Source: Synechococcus sp. LTW-R (lineage in GTDB: Bacteria; Cyanobacteriota; Cyanobacteriia; PCC-6307; Cyanobiaceae). From it: a DNA stretch of 64,000 nucleotides. The notes beneath the pieces were generated by a model. The model was not told the DNA's origin. It ran no database searches and was given only the letters and a program-made list of their open reading frames with translations. Positions 48,742 to 51,046 of this stretch are shown here, in pieces. The position numbers and the translations under genes are program-made. The number at the start of each line of letters is the position of its first letter. Positions within the stretch are counted from its first letter, which is position 1. Location: NCBI RefSeq assembly GCF_014217875.1, contig NZ_CP059060.1:310001-374000 (forward strand), written 5' to 3'.

Positions 48742-48969
48742 CTAGAGCCGCACCTTCGTCACCTCGGCCTTGAGGCTTCCGCCGCGGGTTCCGACATCGA
48801 TCGGAGCCCGCGTGAAGATCTCCACGCGAAGGCCATAGCGGGCAATGCTCCAAAGCCACTGGGCCAGGAGCGCTGCGCTGGCCACAGCGGCGAGGGGCCT
48901 GAGCAGCGGCTGCAGCAGGGCGGCACGTTGGCCGTTCAGCAGCAGGCAGGACTCGGCGGTGCGGTTCAA
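48742..48969 (-). CDS. Small membrane protein of unknown function
   Basis: A 75-residue ORF with one probable membrane segment (LRPLAAVASAALLAQWLWSI) and a polar C terminus. TTG at 48967-48969 overlaps the TGA of the preceding gene (TTGA), the same coupling pattern as elsewhere in this cluster, which supports its being translated. Last gene of a minus-strand set of unknown genes, convergent with chlL. No family recognised. Confidence 0.5.
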   Translation of the reverse strand: MNRTAESCLLLNGQRAALLQPLLRPLAAVASAALLAQWLWSIARYGLRVEIFTRAPIDVGTRGGSLKAEVTKVRL

Positions 48970-49424
48970 GAGCTCAGGCTCGTGCAGGCCTCCAGTAGGA
49001 GAGTCTCGGCTGGGGTGCCCACGCTGGGAACGCGCCAGTCGCCCCAGTTGGACCCCGCCCGCTTGCGGTTGATGGTCATGTCCTTGCAGTTCACCGCCAA
49101 GGCGCGATCGGGAATGCTGCCCTTGGGATCGCTGTCGGGGGTCGAGGGCCAACTGATGCCGCCAATCGACGTGGGCCGGGTCACGGCGCGCCGCCAGGGG
49201 GCGATCCAGACGTAGGGGTGGGTGTCAAAGGGCTTCCAGCTCTTCCAATCCACTTCGACGTCCCCAAAGCGCCGCCAGCGCGCGTGCTCTTCCTGTTGCC
49301 GCCTCCGCAGCCGCTCCAGCAGGACCTGTTGCTCCGACGCGCTTGCGGTGTCGGCCCGCGCGCTGGGAGTGCTTGTGCACAGCACCAGCATGAGCACGGC
49401 AAGAAGAGGCGCACGTCGCGTCAT
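48966..49424 (-). CDS. Secreted protein of unknown function
   Basis: A 152-residue protein with a clear signal peptide (RRAPLLAVLMLVLCTSTPSARA, cleavage near residue 24). The mature part begins with a Gln/Glu/Arg helix (ASEQQVLLERLRRRQQEEHARW) and is rich in Trp (DWKSWKPFDTHPYVWIAPWRR), with one Cys in VNCKDM and one in LEACTS that could form a disulfide outside the cytoplasm. Its ATG overlaps the stop of the upstream gene (ATGA). No family recognised. Confidence 0.75.
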   Translation of the reverse strand: MTRRAPLLAVLMLVLCTSTPSARADTASASEQQVLLERLRRRQQEEHARWRRFGDVEVDWKSWKPFDTHPYVWIAPWRRAVTRPTSIGGISWPSTPDSDPKGSIPDRALAVNCKDMTINRKRAGSNWGDWRVPSVGTPAETLLLEACTSLSS

Positions 49425-49915
49425 GGCAGGGGGGGTAGCGGCAGGGGCGAGATCGACTTCAGGGCGTCCTTGATCGAGACGGTGACATTGCCGCCGATCT
49501 GGTTCACTCCCACCTCGCCATTCACCAGCAGCGGTTCTTCGCTGACGATCTCCACCGCTTCGACGATCTTCTCGACGGCCACCGGCTTCTGGATCCGTGC
49601 CACATCTACAGGCAGGGATTCATTGGCTCTCACAGGGAGAGCCGTTGGGGCACTGACGGCAACCGGAAGGGAGCCATTGGCCTGAACCTGCACCGGTTTC
49701 AGGATCTTCTAGACCTGAATCGGTCCTTTCAGGACCACCGGGAAAGGCATCTGCCGCTTCACGGCGATCGGTATGGGTTGCCCAAGGATCTGGATGGCGG
49801 CCAGGGCCGCTGACCAGGTGGCGAGGACAATCGCCAGGGGCCAGCGACTGGCCATGGCCAACAGGAACCAGCGGGGCTGGTCCTCCTGGTTCAGTGGATT
49901 CACGGGCCTGCCCAT
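49421..49915 (-). pseudogene. Single-pass membrane protein with PxxV repeats, split by an in-frame TAG
   Basis: One reading frame is interrupted only by TAG at 49709-49711. Upstream half: cytosolic N terminus, then one membrane helix (PLAIVLATWSAALAAIQILG), then IPIAVKRQMPFPVVLKGPIQV. Downstream half continues the same short repeats (ILKPVQVQANGSLPVAV, TALPV, SLPVDV) and ends SPLPLPPLP. A single C-to-T change in a CAG codon would explain the stop: PIQV-stop-K aligns with PVQVQ. Alternatives are a sequencing error, genuine read-through, or re-initiation at GTG 49693. Starts ATG 49915 or TTG 49921. Function unknown; envelope location inferred. Confidence 0.7.

Positions 49916-49993: not shown

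Positions 49994-51046
<1,053 letters not shown>

Follow-up and report, generated by a model that had tools for sequence, protein, structure and literature searches.

Gene X of Synechococcus sp. LTW-R, which lies in the 64,000-nucleotide stretch of DNA analysed here (the window), is interrupted by an in-frame TAG codon, and this stop probably arose by a recent nonsense mutation of an ordinary kind at the level of the strain. With the same boundaries as in its orthologues, the whole gene occupies positions 49421 to 49915 on the minus strand, starting at ATG 49915-49913 and ending at TGA 49423-49421. The TAG (49711-49709, minus strand) separates an N-terminal part of 68 codons (49712 to 49915), encoding a hydrophobic anchor and the first repeats, from a C-terminal part of 95 codons (49424 to 49708), in which the frame is open and carries no further disruption. 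Both parts lie in one frame. Between the stop codon that precedes ATG 49915 and the TGA at 49423-49421, no stop other than the TAG was found, so that the first-pass annotation was correct in describing two halves of one frame with an in-frame TAG between them.

The predicted product has a hydrophobic segment at its N-terminus and, after it, a series of short repeats of beta type such as PIPI, PFPVVL, PIQV, PVQV, LPVAV and PVAVEKI. It matches no Pfam or NCBIfam family, and a profile search against the PDB gave no match. A structure predicted from two sequences was of low quality (mean pLDDT 45), with a helix in the N-terminal part at low confidence only. No second copy of the gene was found in the genome, which is a single contig of 2,415,533 bases. 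Gene X is a single gene. Its family is picocyanobacterial and uncharacterised, and its product is a small protein with a membrane anchor and beta-type repeats.

Relatives of gene X were sought in 99 related genomes and then in 400 genomes of the family, about 70 of which carry one. The closest orthologues are found in G018 (93-94% protein identity; this genome is also the MAG Synechococcus sp. HW_metabat.21), G023 (90-91%) and G020 (86%). In each of these gene X is a single uninterrupted ORF of the same span, and all three have GAG (Glu) at the site of the TAG. When 15 members of the wider family are aligned, most have Glu or Asp at this position; Asn and Arg occur once each, and Gln does not occur. 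It had been proposed that the repeat pattern predicts CAG (Gln) at this codon, and that orthologues might show it. This prediction was mistaken, as the closest orthologues have GAG and the second VEKI motif of gene X itself, at codon 117, also uses GAG for its Glu. A mid-gene stop, at this site or elsewhere in gene X, was not found in any other family member whose locus was read; internal stops had been flagged in some distant members, and reading of those loci placed them at the C-terminal ends. The TAG is thus confined to LTW-R, one base away from the sense codon of the intact orthologues. Two separate genes divided by a conserved stop, the arrangement that would argue against a single gene, were looked for among the orthologues, and uninterrupted ORFs were found instead. 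Since the split is not conserved, the two halves of gene X belong to one gene. When genome contigs were scanned for a second strain of the same species, the sole match was the G018 record, and viral contigs scanned for the site gave no match. The G018 copy carries an in-frame deletion of 8 codons (alignment codons 95-102), indicating that the length of the repeat region varies.

The base change is GAG to TAG, a single G-to-T transversion on the coding strand, which would have converted a Glu codon of gene X into a stop. We counted substitutions on the branches leading to LTW-R and to G018. On the LTW-R branch there are 4 silent and no amino-acid-changing changes before the TAG, and 6 silent and 4 amino-acid-changing changes after it. 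The corresponding numbers for the G018 branch are 5 silent and 2 amino-acid-changing changes before the site, and 4 silent and 3 amino-acid-changing changes after it. Relaxed selection downstream of the TAG was therefore not detected relative to G018 (4 amino-acid-changing to 6 silent, against 3 to 4), the counts being small, and the changes in this region are mostly conservative. The lack of visible decay past the TAG fits a recent stop but also continued translation, between which such small counts do not discriminate. Taken with the intact orthologues, loss of function of gene X and recency of the stop are the readings that we infer to be most likely.

Four bases unique to LTW-R fall within 21 nucleotides, at 49691 to 49711 of the window on the minus strand, affecting codons 71, 75 and 77 (frame counted from 49921). 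Gene X has about 15 such unique bases in all, and the group is denser than the rest of the gene. The cluster may reflect chance, poor sequence or error, or a small conversion event.

The same cluster bears on the possibility that the TAG is a sequencing or assembly error, the true codon being GAG and gene X intact. This would account readily for a difference of one base in one genome while all relatives are intact, and four unique bases so close together could signal locally poor sequence. However, the other unique bases nearby only exchange one sense codon for another, and the chromosome is a single contig rated 100% complete. In addition, no other clear gene is broken among the 57 compared in the window, a result with which a lone error is still compatible. 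On balance we regard an error as less likely than a mutation, but as the most probable of the alternatives to it. Comparison of these window genes (about 57) with G023 and G020 left gene X as the only clear gene bearing a mid-gene stop; apparent stops in other window genes were attributable to upstream extensions of ORFs, antisense frames or doubtful frames.

The gene content of this genome argues that TAG is read as an ordinary stop. Release factor RF1 (prfA) is present (476.8 bits), none of the 46 tRNA genes found in the genome has a CUA anticodon, and a search of the genome for PylS found none. TAG is also a common terminator: of the 57 window ORFs with a G023 homologue, 17 end in it, por among them, though a small number of the ORFs counted could be spurious. 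For the 80 nucleotides following the TAG of gene X, predicted folding is not stronger than that of shuffled sequence (z -0.15). Together these observations lead us to expect termination at the TAG. RF1 would end translation there and leave a membrane anchor stub of 68 residues without most of the repeat domain. The N-terminal 68 codons are accordingly expected to be the only part of gene X that is made efficiently, and efficient translation of the C-terminal 95 codons is not predicted.

Translation might nonetheless restart after the TAG. The first common start-type codon past it is a GTG at 49691 to 49693 (minus strand), in frame and 15 nucleotides on, which arose by a lineage-specific change from GTC, and the frame beyond it is intact. 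Ribosomes stopping at the TAG and reinitiating at GTG 49693 would yield an anchored stub and an unanchored repeat part. The start is not conserved, however, the codon being GTC in G018, G020 and G023, and the sequence ahead of it offers no more than a weak Shine-Dalgarno-like AGAAG. The product would moreover be deprived of its anchor. Reinitiation in E. coli and Haloferax drops strongly across gaps of 13-14 nucleotides and is nearly lost above about 20 nucleotides (PMC10666635); a gap of +14 nucleotides cost 40-80% of reinitiation in E. coli (PMC10666635). Restart at this GTG is thus a distant prospect. A view in which the TAG and the lineage-specific GTG together mark a gene split by mutation, giving an anchored stub and, as a second product, a repeat protein without an anchor, we consider more doubtful still.

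Programmed read-through of the TAG, giving a short and a long form, is the least credible proposal, as the open downstream frame with its mostly conservative changes is set against a stop that occurs in LTW-R only and against the tRNA, RF1, PylS and RNA folding results given above, together with the frequent use of TAG as a normal terminator; read-through decoding was rejected on the lack of conservation and on the tRNA, RF1, PylS and folding results. Systems of pyrrolysine or amber-suppressor decoding share the in-frame TAG with gene X, but differ in just these decoding components. Of the three options that the first-pass annotation had left side by side, namely recent nonsense mutation, assembly error and programmed read-through, the first thus fits best, the stop being unique and the orthologues intact, the second is a less likely alternative, and the last is not supported.

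If the stop is a recent nonsense mutation, its effects may extend to the next gene. Gene Y (48966 to 49424, minus strand) encodes a protein of 152 amino acids with a likely signal peptide and, like gene X, has no Pfam or NCBIfam family. Its ATG (49424-49422) overlaps the TGA of gene X (49423-49421) in an ATGA sequence, so that the ATGA junction noted earlier at this place is real. Such overlaps are known to couple termination to reinitiation (PMC6728339, PMC10666635). No Shine-Dalgarno sequence is visible ahead of the gene Y ATG in either LTW-R or G018, and translation of gene Y therefore probably depends on ribosomes that have finished gene X. A premature TAG would allow fewer ribosomes to reach the ATGA overlap and would reduce the amount of gene Y product. 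Cyanobacteria often initiate translation without a Shine-Dalgarno motif (PMC6728339), and for this reason the polar effect on gene Y may be partial. Our analysis thus suggests that translation of gene Y is probably lowered by the TAG, perhaps only in part. The X-Y overlap in LTW-R and G018 resembles known cases of ATGA coupling, whereas the junction in G020 and G023 does not. The TAG differs from such cases in lying about 285 nucleotides ahead of the overlap, so that coupling here would be lost rather than used. The junction is an ATGA overlap in G000 and G018 and a gap of about 11 nucleotides in G020 and G023 (loci L002 and L004), which shows that its type changes between close relatives.

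The upstream neighbour of gene X is por, the gene for light-dependent protochlorophyllide reductase (49994 to 51028, minus strand; TIGR01289, 440 bits), which itself ends in TAG, and ORFs resembling further chlorophyll-synthesis genes are found nearby, as expected of cyanobacterial DNA. Of 25 genomes compared within the genus, six have strong matches to gene X (G000, G005, G018, G020, G021 and G023), and exactly these six have strong matches to gene Y. Some distant copies may go unseen because of rapid sequence divergence. By this co-occurrence, X and Y form a patchily distributed two-gene cassette, combining an anchored repeat protein with a likely secreted protein.

Most relatives lack gene X, which suggests that it can be lost at low cost and makes a tolerated nonsense mutation plausible. 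The case resembles the recent pseudogenes that nonsense mutations produce in single bacterial strains: there is the same one substitution, with intact orthologues, no other lesion and a gene of patchy occurrence. Nothing notable sets it apart from the usual examples; the affected family is one without a Pfam or NCBIfam model. Gene X should accordingly be annotated as interrupted in LTW-R, and the interruption has little significance past annotation. The broader point, and one of mild interest, is the X-Y cassette with its patchy occurrence across the genus.
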